The notes beneath the pieces were generated by a model, which searched no databases, was not told the DNA's origin, and worked only from the letters and a program-made list of their open reading frames with translations. A DNA stretch of 64,000 nucleotides, from contig NZ_CAJAXH010000017.1 of NCBI RefSeq assembly GCF_903946935.1, positions 1 through 64,000 of the forward strand, in the 5' to 3' direction. Origin of the DNA: an uncultured Thiodictyon sp. GTDB taxonomy: Bacteria > Pseudomonadota > Gammaproteobacteria > Chromatiales > Chromatiaceae. Every line of letters begins with the position of its first letter. Position 1 is the first letter of the stretch. Shown piece after piece: positions 5,826 to 59,570 of the stretch. The translations under genes and the position numbers were made by a program.

Positions 5826-5929
5826 AGCCCCGCCCACGCCCGCGGCTGGCCTTGATCATAATATCGGCCGCCGCAGATGGAAGCGAGGTCGCTGGTCCGC
5901 GCAGCGGACCCTACGGGCGCGCTCAAGCC

Positions 5930-49314: not shown

Positions 49315-49860
49315 TCAGTCGCCGAGGATATAGGCCAGGTCGATCTCGATCTCATCGAAGGGCGGGATGCGCACCCGCGCGGGTTCGGTGAGGGTGGCAG
49401 TGACCCTATAGTGGTCACCATCGAGCCGATAGGCAACCAGGGTCCGGTCCTCCGGCCAGATCAGCCAGTAAAACGGCACCCGGTGGCGCTGCAAAAGCAG
49501 GAACAGGGTGAGGGTATCCTTGCGCTCGTGGCCCGGGGAGACGATCTCGCACACCCAATCCGGCGCCAGCTCGATGACACCGCGCGGACGCTGCGGCATC
49601 CGCTCGTTGCGCCAGCCGGCCAGGTCATGGCAGGGGCACTGATGGAGCTCGTAGCCGACGCTCACGTCGGTGATGATCCACCAGCCGCCGGGGCCGGACT
49701 GGCGGTCGAACGGCCCCAGCTCTACGCCGGCCCGGTGCTGCACGACCCCGTGCTCGGCCCGCGCCATGGGCCGGCGAATAATCTCACCGTTGATCAACTC
49801 CACCCGCTCATCCGGACTGATCAGCAGGTCGGCAATGGTGTCCAGTTGGTAAGCTTCCAT
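49315..49860 (-). CDS. Uma2-like endonuclease-fold protein, second copy
   Basis: The 181-residue protein is another Uma2/DUF820 member: ERVELINGEIIRRPMARAEHG, the PD-like region ...LAPDWVCEIVSPGHERKDTLTLFLLLQRHRVPFYWLIWPEDRTLVAYRL. The VSPGHERKDT segment corresponds to the EVLSPGTSVRD of the copy at 1894-2481, with a weak overall match. Function unknown. It is on the minus strand, divergent from the Sel1-repeat gene, and may be recently transferred, as such genes often are. Confidence 0.85.
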   Translation of the reverse strand: MEAYQLDTIADLLISPDERVELINGEIIRRPMARAEHGVVQHRAGVELGPFDRQSGPGGWWIITDVSVGYELHQCPCHDLAGWRNERMPQRPRGVIELAPDWVCEIVSPGHERKDTLTLFLLLQRHRVPFYWLIWPEDRTLVAYRLDGDHYRVTATLTEPARVRIPPFDEIEIDLAYILGD

Positions 49861-52195: not shown

Positions 52196-52331
52196 GGATG
52201 ATCCTCGCCGCTGATGTCGATGGATAAGGGGTATGGGTCCAACAGACAATCATGTCGGTTATCGGGGGGAATGGGAAGCCCCTGTGAAGGATTGATCTCG
52301 TGCCCACGCACCGGCGTGGAAATGCAGTCTT

Positions 52332-52375
52332 GGCCGCTCCAGCGGCGCGAATTCGCACGCGACGCTGGAGCGTCG
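52332..52375. repeat. CGCTCCAGCG/CGCTGGAGCG palindrome upstream of purE
   Basis: CGCTCCAGCG at 52335-52344 and CGCTGGAGCG at 52363-52372 flank GCGCGAATTCGCACGCGA. The arms match the frequent CGACGCTCCAGCGTC-type intergenic palindrome. It lies in the 218-bp gap between the CHAT-STAND gene end and purE, where no other feature is seen. Confidence 0.55.
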
Positions 52376-52413
52376 GGACTGGCTCCCTCGCTGGCGCGTG
52401 GGCGCGAGAAATT

Positions 52414-55400
52414 CTACAGCGTTTCAGCGGACTGGCGGGCCTGGGCGAGGAACTGGTCGATGGCGGCTTGCAGGCTCGCCGGGTCCACCTGGCGCTGGCG
52501 CAGCCACTGGGCCAGGGGGGCGAAGGCGGGGTCGGCGAGCAGCTCGGCCAGGCGGGGGATGGCGAGTTCGGTGCGGGCGGCGCGGGCGCGTCGGAAGGCG
52601 ATGGCGTAGTTGTGCAACGAGGTCTGGAGGGACTGGCCCAGCCCGGCGACCAGGAAGTAGACGAACGCGGCGAGTTGGTGGCGGGCCGACTCGGCGAGCG
52701 CGGGCGGGGTGCCGCTGCCGTCCAGATAGCTGGCCAGATTGTTGTGCGAGAGGGCGCGGTCGGCGGGGTCCGGCAACTGCTCGCGCAGGGCGAGGGCGCG
52801 GCGCTGCTGGGTGATGGCCTGGGCGCGGTCGCCCTGGCGGTTGAAGAGGTCGGCGAGTGAGCCGAGCACCTTGGCGCGCCAGGCGGGATTGTTCTCGAAG
52901 AGCACGAGACAGGTCTCCAGCTCGGCCTTGGCCTCGCCGAGGCGGCCCGGCATCTCCATCAGCACAGTGGCACGGTTCATCCGCGTGGCGCCGAGGTCCT
53001 CCGCCGGGCGTTGCAGTGTACGCTCGACCTCCAGGGTGGCATCCAGGCGGACCAGGGCGGAGGCCCAGTCCGCTTGCGCGTAGTGCGCGTCCTTGGCGAT
53101 GTCGAGTGCGCCGATCAGGGTTCGGGCGAGGGGCTCGGCATCCGGGGCCTCGGGTACTGACTGACCGGCCCGGTGCTGGTGCCACCACCCCTGCACCTGG
53201 GCGAGCCGCCGCTCGACCTCGGGCAGGGCGGTGGCGACCTGGCCCTGCTGGATGTCGATGCGCAGGGCCTCCAACTCGCTGCCGATGACCTGGACGGCGG
53301 GGCGGCCGGCCCTCTTGTGCGCCTCGGCCCCCTCAATCCGCCGCCGACGGGCGCCGTCGAGGTCGCCGACATCGCCGAGTGCGTTCGCCCAGTTGCCGCT
53401 GATCACGGCCAGGTCCGCCCAGGCCTGCCGGGCGCCCTCGCCCCCCGACTCGGCGGCGGCGTCCGCCTGCGCGGCGGCCTGCTCGTAGAAGCTCAGGCCG
53501 GCGTCGGGGCGGCCGGCTTGACGCAACGCATCGGCGAGGTAGCAGAGGCAGGACCAGCGCGGCTGGCCCTCCGGGGCCTGGCCGGCGGCGGTCTCCAGGT
53601 GCGGGGTCAGTGCCTGGAGCAGCACCGGGTCCTGCGTGCTGGTGACGAGGCGGCTGGCAAAGCCGCCCAGTCGCTCCCAGGCCGCGGCCTGGACGCAGTA
53701 GACCAGGGCGCGGCTGCCCGCCTGGATGGCGGCGGTCATGTCCTGGTGCAGCAGCCCCTTGAACGCGGACTCCAGCCGCTGCGCATAGGCGAGGCGCACG
53801 CCGTCCTCGGTCAGGTCCGCCCGGTCCGCCGCGTGACGTTCCATCCAGTCGCGGATGCGCTCGCGCACCAGCTCATGACAGCCGAAGTTCGGGGTCGCGT
53901 CCCCCTCCCCGGCACGCTCCTCGGTCACCAAGCCCAGGGCGACCAGCCGGCGCAGCAGCGGGGCCGGGTCGGGTTGCGCCGGTGCCGCGGGCGGCAGGGC
54001 GTCGAGCATGGCGCGCCAGTCCGGCGACATCTCCTGCAACATCGCCTCAAGCTCGGCAGGAATGGTCGGCAGCACCTCCAGCATCGCCTTGATCTGCCGC
54101 AGTTGCCCCTGCTCCTCATCCTCCCCGCTCCAACCCCCCCGAATCAGCCGGAGGGACTCCGGCTGATTGGCCAAGGCAATGATCCACAACAACCGCCGCG
54201 CCTCCGGACTCAGGTCATCGAGCAACTGCCCGATCGAGCGCCCCAGCGCGTCGTCCAGATAGGCGAGTTCCGCCGCGTCCCCCGGCTGCATGGCGAAGAG
54301 CGCGGGCAGGCGGTCGAATCCCTTGGCCTCTTCCAGTACCGCCAGCACGTCCAAGAGCCGCGGGCGCAGCGCCGGGTCCGCCGCCAGCCGGGCGAGCCGG
54401 TCCATCAGGAGCGGATGGAAGCGGCTGGCATGGAGCAGACGTTGGGCGAGCCGCCGCTCCGCAGGATCGGCACCGAAGATCATCCCGCCCAGGGTCGGCT
54501 GCTCGCGCAGATAGAGCGCCGCCTCCGCGGCGGGCAGTGGGCCGAGCAGGACGGTGAGGCCCGTCGGGTCCGCTGCGCGGACCGCGGCCTGCGCCAACGC
54601 GGCGAGCGGACGGCGGCTGGCGATGAGTACCCGGGAGGGGGCGCCGACCAGACCGGCGGCGAGGGCCTCAAGACATTGATCCCAGGCCGGGTCCTGGCAG
54701 GCCCAGACCGGGTTGGCGGCCGGCTCCGGCCTGGGCTTGAGATTGGTCTCGAAGTTGTCCAGCACCAGCAGGATCGCCTCGTCCTTGAGCGCACGGACCA
54801 GGTTGAGGATGAGCCGCGTCAGGCGCTCGTAACCGGTGAATCCCGGCTCCGGGTTGCGGTGGACGGCATCGGCCGGGCGGGCCTTGACGTGCGCGTGATA
54901 GCGGCCGAGCTCGCCATGAAGCTTGAGATGAATGTCGCGCAGCCAGGCGTCGAACGCAAGCGGGCTGGGCTTGACCTGGTAGATCAGGACCCAGTCGAAG
55001 CCCTGTTCCCAGAGGTCCAGGGCCTCGGCCGCCAGCGCGGTCTTGCCCATGCCGCCCAGGCCGACGATGACGGCGACCGGGCTGGTCTGCGCATCCGGAC
55101 CGGTACCAATGAAGTCCGCCCCGAGCCGCGTCAGTTCCCAGGTCCGCCCGACGAAGTGCGGATGCGCCACAGTGGTCAGCTCGGCGACCGGATGCAGGCG
55201 CCGGCCGCGCGCATCGGATGCGCCGCCGCGGCCGGCTCGCAACGTCAGCCCGGGCGTCTCCTCGCCATAGAGGACCGGGGTGGCGTGGTCGCAGACCTGA
55301 AACCAGGCCGGCGCCTGCGCCGGGCCATTGAGCAGCGCCCGGCGCACCAGGGTGTGCGCGGCGGCGGCGTCCTTGGGCCTGGGGTCGGCGAGCAGTGCGC

Positions 55401-56460
55401 GGTAGAAGCTGAGCGCCAGCTCACGGGCATAGTCGTCCCCGACCGCGTAGCGCATGGCGACCACGGACGGGACACCGCCTTGCAGCAGGGCGTGGGCGGA
55501 GCCGGTGTAGCCGGGCTGGTCGTGCAGGTCCAGGTCGCGGCTGGGGTCGGCGGCGATCTGCTTGGTGGCTGGCGCCTTACCCTGGGCGAGGGCGAGGAAG
55601 TCGTCCCAGTCCTGGACGCGCAGCAGGTCGCCGGAGTGGCAGGCGCTGAGCACAAAGAGGCGCGGGAGCAGGCCGCCCGCGTCCAGGAAGAGCTTGAGCA
55701 GGTCCTGGCCGGAGATCGGGTCGCCGGCGCCGCCGGGGCGGGCGAGTTCCAGCAGGTTACGATTGCCGTGACCGCTCCAGTGTACACAGTGGTAGCCACC
55801 GTGACCCTGCACTTGGGCGATGAGCCGCTCCCGCGTCACGCCGTGGCTGAGGAAATGGGCGACGACCTGGCGCCCCGGATAGACCTCTTTTTCAAAGAGC
55901 CGGATCAGCGCGCGGCGTTCCCGACGCAGCCCGAGCGGCTGGGAGCCGCGGGCCTCGGCAAAGACGAACAGCACCCGCAGCGGCTCGTCCGGCGCGAGCG
56001 CCATGGGCGTGGAGGCGGGGTCCTGCCGATCATGGACGACACGGACCAACAGGTTGCGCTCGGCCAGGCTGTCGGCATCCGCTGCCGGGCGGGCTAGTTC
56101 CCAGGGGACGCGGGCCAAAGCGGCGGCCAGCGGGTTGTCGCGTTCCGCCGCACCGGGCAGTTGGATGCGCAGTGTGCGCTGGGTCCGCACGGTCCAAAGC
56201 GGCTTGAAGATGTCGACGCCCAGGACCTCCTCGGCGATGCAGACCCCGACCTCGGCCAGGGCGGCACGCTGGCCGGCCTCGTCGCAATACAACCGCAGGT
56301 AGTCGCGCAGGTCAAAAAGGCCCTGTTGGCGCCCCGCCGGGATGGTCTTGAAGTCGGTCTGCTGATAGGCAAGCTGGTTGCCGGCGCCGTCCAGCAGGCG
56401 GAATTCAGCGGTGCGGCTCGGGTAGTCGGCGGTAACGACGAGGTCGAAGCGGGCAGTCAT
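52414..56460 (-). CDS. CHAT protease-STAND NTPase-TPR protein
   Basis: This 1348-residue protein has three parts. Residues about 1-410: a CHAT domain (caspase-like protease), with the predicted catalytic His in HCVHWSGHGNRN (about H231) and Cys in LFVLSACHSGD (about C274). Residues about 440-720: a STAND (NB-ARC/NACHT-like) ATPase with Walker A VIVGLGGMGKTALAAEAL (K about 473) and Walker B ILLVLDNFE (D about 568). The rest is helical, with a TPR-type C-terminus (QADWASALVRLDATLEVERTL, RQGDRAQAITQQRRALALREQL). Such architectures in bacteria sense phage or stress and trigger proteolysis. Partner and target are unknown. The start MTARFDLVVTADYPSRTAEF is preferred to upstream codons. A 57-residue ORF lies upstream on the same strand. 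Confidence 0.93.
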   Translation of the reverse strand: MTARFDLVVTADYPSRTAEFRLLDGAGNQLAYQQTDFKTIPAGRQQGLFDLRDYLRLYCDEAGQRAALAEVGVCIAEEVLGVDIFKPLWTVRTQRTLRIQLPGAAERDNPLAAALARVPWELARPAADADSLAERNLLVRVVHDRQDPASTPMALAPDEPLRVLFVFAEARGSQPLGLRRERRALIRLFEKEVYPGRQVVAHFLSHGVTRERLIAQVQGHGGYHCVHWSGHGNRNLLELARPGGAGDPISGQDLLKLFLDAGGLLPRLFVLSACHSGDLLRVQDWDDFLALAQGKAPATKQIAADPSRDLDLHDQPGYTGSAHALLQGGVPSVVAMRYAVGDDYARELALSFYRALLADPRPKDAAAAHTLVRRALLNGPAQAPAWFQVCDHATPVLYGEETPGLTLRAGRGGASDARGRRLHPVAELTTVAHPHFVGRTWELTRLGADFIGTGPDAQTSPVAVIVGLGGMGKTALAAEALDLWEQGFDWVLIYQVKPSPLAFDAWLRDIHLKLHGELGRYHAHVKARPADAVHRNPEPGFTGYERLTRLILNLVRALKDEAILLVLDNFETNLKPRPEPAANPVWACQDPAWDQCLEALAAGLVGAPSRVLIASRRPLAALAQAAVRAADPTGLTVLLGPLPAAEAALYLREQPTLGGMIFGADPAERRLAQRLLHASRFHPLLMDRLARLAADPALRPRLLDVLAVLEEAKGFDRLPALFAMQPGDAAELAYLDDALGRSIGQLLDDLSPEARRLLWIIALANQPESLRLIRGGWSGEDEEQGQLRQIKAMLEVLPTIPAELEAMLQEMSPDWRAMLDALPPAAPAQPDPAPLLRRLVALGLVTEERAGEGDATPNFGCHELVRERIRDWMERHAADRADLTEDGVRLAYAQRLESAFKGLLHQDMTAAIQAGSRALVYCVQAAAWERLGGFASRLVTSTQDPVLLQALTPHLETAAGQAPEGQPRWSCLCYLADALRQAGRPDAGLSFYEQAAAQADAAAESGGEGARQAWADLAVISGNWANALGDVGDLDGARRRRIEGAEAHKRAGRPAVQVIGSELEALRIDIQQGQVATALPEVERRLAQVQGWWHQHRAGQSVPEAPDAEPLARTLIGALDIAKDAHYAQADWASALVRLDATLEVERTLQRPAEDLGATRMNRATVLMEMPGRLGEAKAELETCLVLFENNPAWRAKVLGSLADLFNRQGDRAQAITQQRRALALREQLPDPADRALSHNNLASYLDGSGTPPALAESARHQLAAFVYFLVAGLGQSLQTSLHNYAIAFRRARAARTELAIPRLAELLADPAFAPLAQWLRQRQVDPASLQAAIDQFLAQARQSAETL

Positions 56461-56607
56461 GGCGGCGGATGCTCCTGCAACGGGTCCAGGGTCGCCCGGG
56501 TGGCGCCGGTCCGCGGCCGCCAAGGCGGGGACTATCATCCGAAAAAAGCCATCGATCCGCAAATGGCTTCGCTGCCGCGCGGCGAGACACGGCCAACAAG
56601 CGGTGTT

Positions 56608-56667
56608 CGGTCCGCACAGCGGACCCTACGGCTGGCGCCGCGCCCGTAGGGTCCGCTGTGCGGACCA
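56608..56667. repeat. Inverted pair of GGTCCGC hairpins
   Basis: GGTCCGCACAGCGGACCCTA (from 56609) faces TAGGGTCCGCTGTGCGGACC (from 56647), each itself a hairpin, about 17 bp apart. Related elements are at 5894-5917, 6050-6066, 17246-17260 and 59461-59481. It separates the 57-residue gene from the CHAT-STAND gene, a 250-bp gap with no other recognised content. Confidence 0.8.
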
Positions 56668-56711
56668 ACGACCTCGCCGTTAGCACGGTGGCGAGGCCGA
56701 TACCGGGTCGG

Positions 56712-56885
56712 TTACGTCTTATTTTGGTCCTTGTTGAACAAGCCCATCTGATATTCCAGGTCGTAACGGCCGAACACCAGGTTGGCCTCGCGCAGGAGTT
56801 CCTCGAAGAGGTCCCGCGGGTCCTCCCCGTCGGCGATCCGCCGGTCGACCAAGGTCTCGAGAATCTCTTTGAAGCTGGTAGCCAT
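56712..56885 (-). CDS. 57-residue acidic protein upstream of the CHAT-STAND gene
   Basis: MATSFKEILETLVDRRIADG continuing EDPRDLFEELLREANLVFGR and YDLEYQMGLFNKDQNKT: a small soluble, mostly helical, acidic protein. The ATG is preceded by a GGGGGTG purine tract and a TATACT -10-like box (plus-strand positions 56918-56923). The reading frame continues upstream with another ATG (56948), but the codons between are less convincing. It is on the same strand as the CHAT-STAND gene, 250 bp upstream, and could be a partner, trigger or inhibitor; that link is inference from position. No family was recognised. Confidence 0.65.
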   Translation of the reverse strand: MATSFKEILETLVDRRIADGEDPRDLFEELLREANLVFGRYDLEYQMGLFNKDQNKT

Positions 56886-59357: not shown

Positions 59358-59570
59358 TTTTTTGTCCGCCAAATAAACGCAAATAAACGCAAATAAAACA
59401 GCCTATTGGACATCATCGATGGCATGTCCGTCGGGCGACGGACGCAGTGCCACGCCGTAGGTAGGGTCCGCTGTGCGGACCGATCGCCACTGGCCCGCGC
59501 CGCATCAAGCCACTGCGTCAGCCTCCGACCCGTCTTAATTTGCGTTCATTTGCGTTCATTTGCGGACAAA
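59358..59570. repeat. Facing decamer repeats around a GGTCCGC hairpin
   Basis: GTCCGCCAAATAAACGCAAA and a TAAACGCAAATAAA run (59364-59397) face TTTGCGTTCATTTGCGTTCA then TTTGCGGACAAA (59539-59570). Between them is a GGTCCGCTGTGCGGACC hairpin at 59461-59481. The 352-bp gap between rpsF and serS (59229-59580) thus holds the rpsF promoter and leader and these repeats; no gene is seen. Confidence 0.75.

Follow-up and report, generated by a model that had tools for sequence, protein, structure and literature searches.

What does a bacterium gain from a single large protein that joins a caspase-like protease to a nucleotide switch and a repeat-rich arm, and that is encoded among housekeeping genes? 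In the window (the whole 64,000-nucleotide stretch of DNA from an uncultured Thiodictyon sp. analysed here), a sequence-only reading had proposed that one polypeptide at 52414–56460 combines a CHAT protease domain, a STAND P-loop switch and a TPR-rich C-terminus, and serves as a sensor-gated protease for defence. The locus is a single open frame of 1,348 codons on the minus strand (the strand was not given in that reading), starting with an ATG at 56460 and ending at 52414; the plus-strand frame read over the same positions is interrupted by stops. A GGAG lies 11 nt 5′ of the ATG. A longer form starting from a TTG at 56562 is unlikely, because homology to relatives starts 35 bp before the ATG. 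The gene is real, since the orthologue in a congener (G005) keeps the whole frame and omega is 0.2–0.4.

The N-terminal 112 residues (56125–56460, minus strand, as for all parts of the protein given below) form a pre-CHAT region, strand-rich at its start in a low-confidence model. The CHAT domain follows (PF12770; aa 113–381; 55318–56124), with a Pfam score of 56.6 bits against a cut-off of 24 bits (E 3.6e-15); its predicted catalytic residues are His231 in SGHG (codon 55768–55770) and Cys274 in SACHSG (codon 55639–55641), at the positions named by the sequence-only reading. The switch region (54361–55155) matches AAA_16 above cut-off at aa 436–571 (E 1.4e-9), with motifs continuing to about aa 690. 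It has an intact Walker A (GLGGMGKT; aa 467–474; 55039–55062) and Walker B (LLVLDNFE; aa 564–571; 54748–54771), a sensor-like ASRRP (614) with its SRR, and an HPLL motif. The profile searches suggested for CHAT and for NB-ARC or NACHT were therefore borne out for CHAT, with AAA_16 taking the place of the other two: the NB-ARC model remained below cut-off, and the NACHT model, whose domain is the criterion for bNACHT proteins, gave 13.2 bits against a cut-off of 26.7 bits.

In the C-terminal region TPR_12 matches aa 1195–1249 below the Pfam cut-off, and a sequence search of the PDB with the protein returned a designed TPR protein as its sole match (E 0.59). An AlphaFold model of the C-terminal 618 residues, for which the input was three sequences, predicts helices at about aa 1060–1230 with pLDDT mostly above 80, and matches the TPR domains of LGN, kinesin light chain and BtubC with Z of about 20–24. 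The predicted fold confirms the proposed TPR-rich C-terminus as a TPR solenoid, with the superhelix, a putative sensor, covering about aa 884–1279 (52624–53811). The model of the CHAT–STAND half (aa 1–760, likewise from three sequences) has a pLDDT of 36, too poor to check active site geometry. An N-terminal effector, a P-loop NTPase with Walker A/B and sensor/GxP-like motifs, and C-terminal repeats are among the features of NLR-like STAND proteins, and each of these three is present; the window protein is an NLR-like effector–switch–sensor chain. Its domains, motifs and tail fold, together with the pattern of constraint described below, give good support to the proposed mechanism class, a CHAT protease gated by a sensor through a STAND switch.

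Avs and bacterial NACHT proteins have the same plan, being single genes with an N-terminal effector, a central STAND NTPase and C-terminal superstructure repeats. The window protein differs from them in that its effector is a predicted CHAT protease, it matches no PADLOC family, those of Avs and SAVED-CHAT included, at E values up to 1, and AAA_16 fits it better than NACHT. CHAT and TPRs also occur together in Csx29, the TPR-CHAT protein of the type III-E Craspase, but there the CHAT domain is C-terminal to the TPRs, whereas the window protein has CHAT at the N-terminal side and TPRs at the C-terminal side and carries a STAND switch. Csx29 is not known to have a STAND switch. The type III-E protein acts with Cas7-11 (PMC10028731, PMC9729208); no cas gene was recognised among the ORFs neighbouring the window gene. 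The gasdermin-associated CHAT proteases, including fungal NLRs, have CHAT at the N-terminus of an NLR-like receptor, as here (PMC9815663, PMC12881547). Their genes adjoin a gasdermin gene, however, whilst the neighbours of the window gene read as purE, rplI and a small conserved ORF, with none recognised by reading as gasdermin-like.

The family is nearly genus-restricted. Counting the window genome (G000), five of eight Thiodictyon congeners carry it; orthologues are present in G002, G003, G005 and G007 (the last taken as T. syntrophicum Cad16T), with none in G001, G004 and G006. The G005 protein is 85% identical to the window protein and its frame is open throughout. Outside Thiodictyon a single carrier was found among 194 family genomes, in the Chromatiaceae genus of G053, where a C-terminal fragment is present; 398 genomes sampled from the phylum held no family member apart from its own, and neither plasmid and phage collections nor NCBIfam gave a match to the window protein.

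The idea that the window gene is the lone locus of this type did not hold, as its genome encodes eight CHAT genes and Cad16T has about seventeen CHAT matches. Six of the other seven in the window genome (C54, C71, C258, C35, C18, C125 and C49) pair CHAT with an NTPase, assigned by Pfam or, for C258, by its P-loop motif, and most also have a TPR tail; C49 is CHAT alone. The predicted catalytic histidine and cysteine are kept in all eight proteins, and identity to the window protein is 25–33% for those paralogues that can be aligned. The closest paralogue, C54 (L061, 6585–10555), is split into two frames inside its NTPase, and the gene adjoining it reads like a PP2C phosphatase. C18 (L089, 294–4388) is a TIR-CHAT-NTPase-TPR fusion, with two effector domains in one protein; a CHAT-plus-TIR target protein has been described in a related purple sulphur bacterium (PMC10907252). 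With eight genes in the window genome, and CHAT present in 38 of 96 family genomes (0 to 17 matches per genome), proteins of this kind are common in these bacteria. The window protein is a lineage-restricted addition to an already known kind, single-chain CHAT-NLR proteins being known in fungi (PMC9815663).

The gene occupies two unrelated chromosomal sites. It lies 3′ of rplI in the window genome and G003, and in G002, G005 and G007 it follows genes for an Nt-glutamine amidase and a ParE-like toxin. The DNA common to both sites consists of the ORF and the 35 bp before it (56461–56495, minus strand; a leader with the Shine-Dalgarno-like GGAG), and nothing else. In the other six congeners rplI is followed, by reading, by dnaB- or radA-like genes with no insertion, which means that a single gene and nothing more was gained or lost at one site. 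The family moves between these sites as an exact single-gene cassette, and the comparison of neighbours in homologues that had been proposed as a check yields no conserved partner. Several adjoining genes were considered and set aside. The small upstream ORF (57–78 aa) is missing from the rplI–CHAT gene interval in G003 and is found by itself elsewhere in Chromatiaceae; rplI and purE lie at separate sites in Cad16T, where the CHAT gene is elsewhere; and the Nt-glutamine amidase gene, a possible N-degron link to a protease, is present in seven of the eight congeners, but in G000, G001, G003 and G004 no CHAT gene adjoins it. In the window the small ORF (56712–56885) encodes a conserved 57-aa protein (MATSFKE...) that stands alone in several Chromatiaceae genera. 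In Cad16T, a gene that reads as TIR-like is followed by a further ORF near this small conserved ORF (L072, 2880–6080).

Dispersed repeats flank the window copy, outside the block common to both sites, and also sit inside that copy. A palindromic repeat lies upstream (56599–56692), beyond the conserved cassette, and its core, GGTCCGCNCAGCGGACC, has 90 exact copies in the window genome, where the reversed control has 0. Copies within the window are at 56609–56666, 54567–54583, 59465–59481 and 5894–5910. The second of these falls within the coding sequence, on the minus strand, and is read as VRAADPT; at these codons G005 and G007 carry inserted repeats that stay in frame, 60 and 201 bp in length. 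In-frame insertion of a repeat inside a coding sequence is a likeness to the Rickettsia palindromic elements. A different repeat of about 114 bp lies directly 3′ of the CHAT stop codon (52296–52409) and has many copies across the genus, some of them in tandem.

Three of the five Thiodictyon carriers have a broken copy. In G007 (Cad16T) a 344-bp deletion and a 1-bp insertion remove aa 187–301, including both His231 and Cys274, and shift the frame; in G002 there is an insertion near aa 27 and the copy ends at about aa 447–460, with a second, decayed CHAT copy besides; and G003 lacks 1 bp at aa 114, possibly through an error of assembly. The window and G005 copies are intact, and nearly all other indels within the gene in G005 and G003 are multiples of three. 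At silent sites the CHAT gene has not diverged in step with its neighbours. Between G005 and G007, which share a site, the CHAT gene has a dS of 0.184 against 0.054–0.102 for five other genes; the window genome differs in the opposite direction, with 0.32 against 0.50 for pooled other genes in the comparison with G005 and 0.29 against 0.47 in that with G007, a weaker contrast in that the ribosomal genes of the pooled set also have about 0.26–0.33. The simplest reading is recombination between versions of the gene. Omega is 0.20–0.24 for aa 1–730 against 0.36–0.47 for aa 731–1348, and for each of the five pairs the 95% bootstrap interval of the difference lies clear of zero; the effector–switch half is more tightly constrained than the putative sensor half. 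In its behaviour the gene resembles an accessory gene of the immune type, one that is exchanged and frequently broken.

The sequence-only reading had placed the gene beside housekeeping genes, with only a small ORF upstream and no known antiphage partner. This description is accurate for the window, where PADLOC finds no known defence operon adjoining the gene. The sole clear scorer near the window copy is a Uma2-like protein, by reading, at 49318–49860, which matches the PADLOC candidate PDC-S03 (E 5e-15). In G053 a RelE-type gene and a DUF900 alpha/beta hydrolase gene come next after the fragment, and then AbiLi and AbiLii (PADLOC E 1.8e-96 and 2.9e-23; the DUF900 gene and AbiL pair lie at L091 1689–5143, G053 C32), placing this copy 2.5 kb from an AbiL system, the only such case among the copies. 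Toxin–antitoxin genes adjoin four of the six copies (G002, G005, G007 and G053): ParD/ParE are directly upstream in G005, and a ParE-like toxin gene is in the same upstream place in G007 and G002, G002 also having a ParD-like gene. The Thiodictyon copies otherwise lie among housekeeping or toxin–antitoxin genes and not known defence systems. Homologues outside defence contexts, one half of what the sequence-only reading had named as refuting its proposal, are found in Thiodictyon, where the copies lie among housekeeping genes. Toxin–antitoxin genes are common in such genomes, and CHAT and STAND proteins have functions outside immunity as well.

The support for a role in defence is indirect; it comes from the patchy presence, movement and breakage of the gene, the faster-evolving sensor end, the toxin–antitoxin neighbours and the AbiL system near the G053 copy. 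The original proposal is partly supported, the mechanism class more firmly than the role in defence. On balance we give about an even chance to a one-protein, STAND-gated CHAT protease acting against invaders or in closely related regulated cell death. At rest, an ADP-bound switch and the TPR arm would keep the protein an inactive monomer. A ligand, either a phage protein or a host change induced by infection, would bind the TPR arm, and exchange for ATP would lead to oligomerisation. The clustered CHAT domains would then become active and cleave at least one host protein, so that the cell stops growing or dies before phage can be released. This scheme is proposed because antiviral STAND proteins carry sensors, TPRs among them, at the C-terminus (reviewed in PMC10907252), gasdermin is activated by a fungal TPR-CHAT protease (PMC12881547), and CHAT domains are found in Borvo and type III-E CRISPR systems (PMC10952713). 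Since no partner gene travels with the CHAT gene, the substrate would have to be encoded elsewhere or be the phage protein itself. A more specific form can be put forward only tentatively: a one-gene antiphage system, spread from one Thiodictyon strain to another as a cassette of exactly ORF size at alternative chromosomal sites, in which the CHAT protease is gated directly by the STAND switch and has as its target a host protein whose gene lies elsewhere.

The same biochemistry could answer to a different trigger. A switch to cell death or growth arrest, serving stress or the recognition of kin and non-kin in an aggregate-forming bacterium, would not be directed at phage; we regard it as rather unlikely, though the likeliest of the alternatives. 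Aggregates of Cad16T can reach 100 cells (PMC5944118), and CHAT genes are numerous in Thiodictyon. Multicellular bacteria are enriched in conflict systems that contain STAND NTPases, and kin recognition has been suggested as a role for them (PMC10907252). Against this, three of the eight congeners do without the gene and others have broken copies, which indicates that it is dispensable.

HetF-type CHAT proteins are thought to cut a specific host regulator in cyanobacterial development, and the window protein might likewise be a signalling protease that cuts one such regulator with no killing. The name CHAT itself stands for Caspase HetF Associated with TPRs (PMC12881547), and placement among housekeeping genes would fit, but no neighbour or substrate is conserved across the sites, and patchy presence with frequent loss speaks against a core regulatory role; we consider this improbable. 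The least probable of the alternatives is a decaying or near-neutral gene, spread by repeats and recombination and with no current function in the window genome. Deletion or truncation in G007 and G002, the frameshift in G003, and the repeats around and inside the window copy speak for it, yet the window and G005 copies are fully open, the indels in G003 and G005 almost always preserve the frame, omega is well below 1, and the dyad and Walker motifs are retained.

Should the STAND-gated CHAT protease prove to be a defence protein, a single bacterial gene would join a caspase-like protease to an NLR-type switch, with neither a gasdermin nor a CRISPR partner, and the targets of such proteases would become a question in their own right. 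Cad16T, as a cultured strain with a natural catalytic-deletion allele and close relatives that carry the intact allele, makes a loss-of-function comparison possible.
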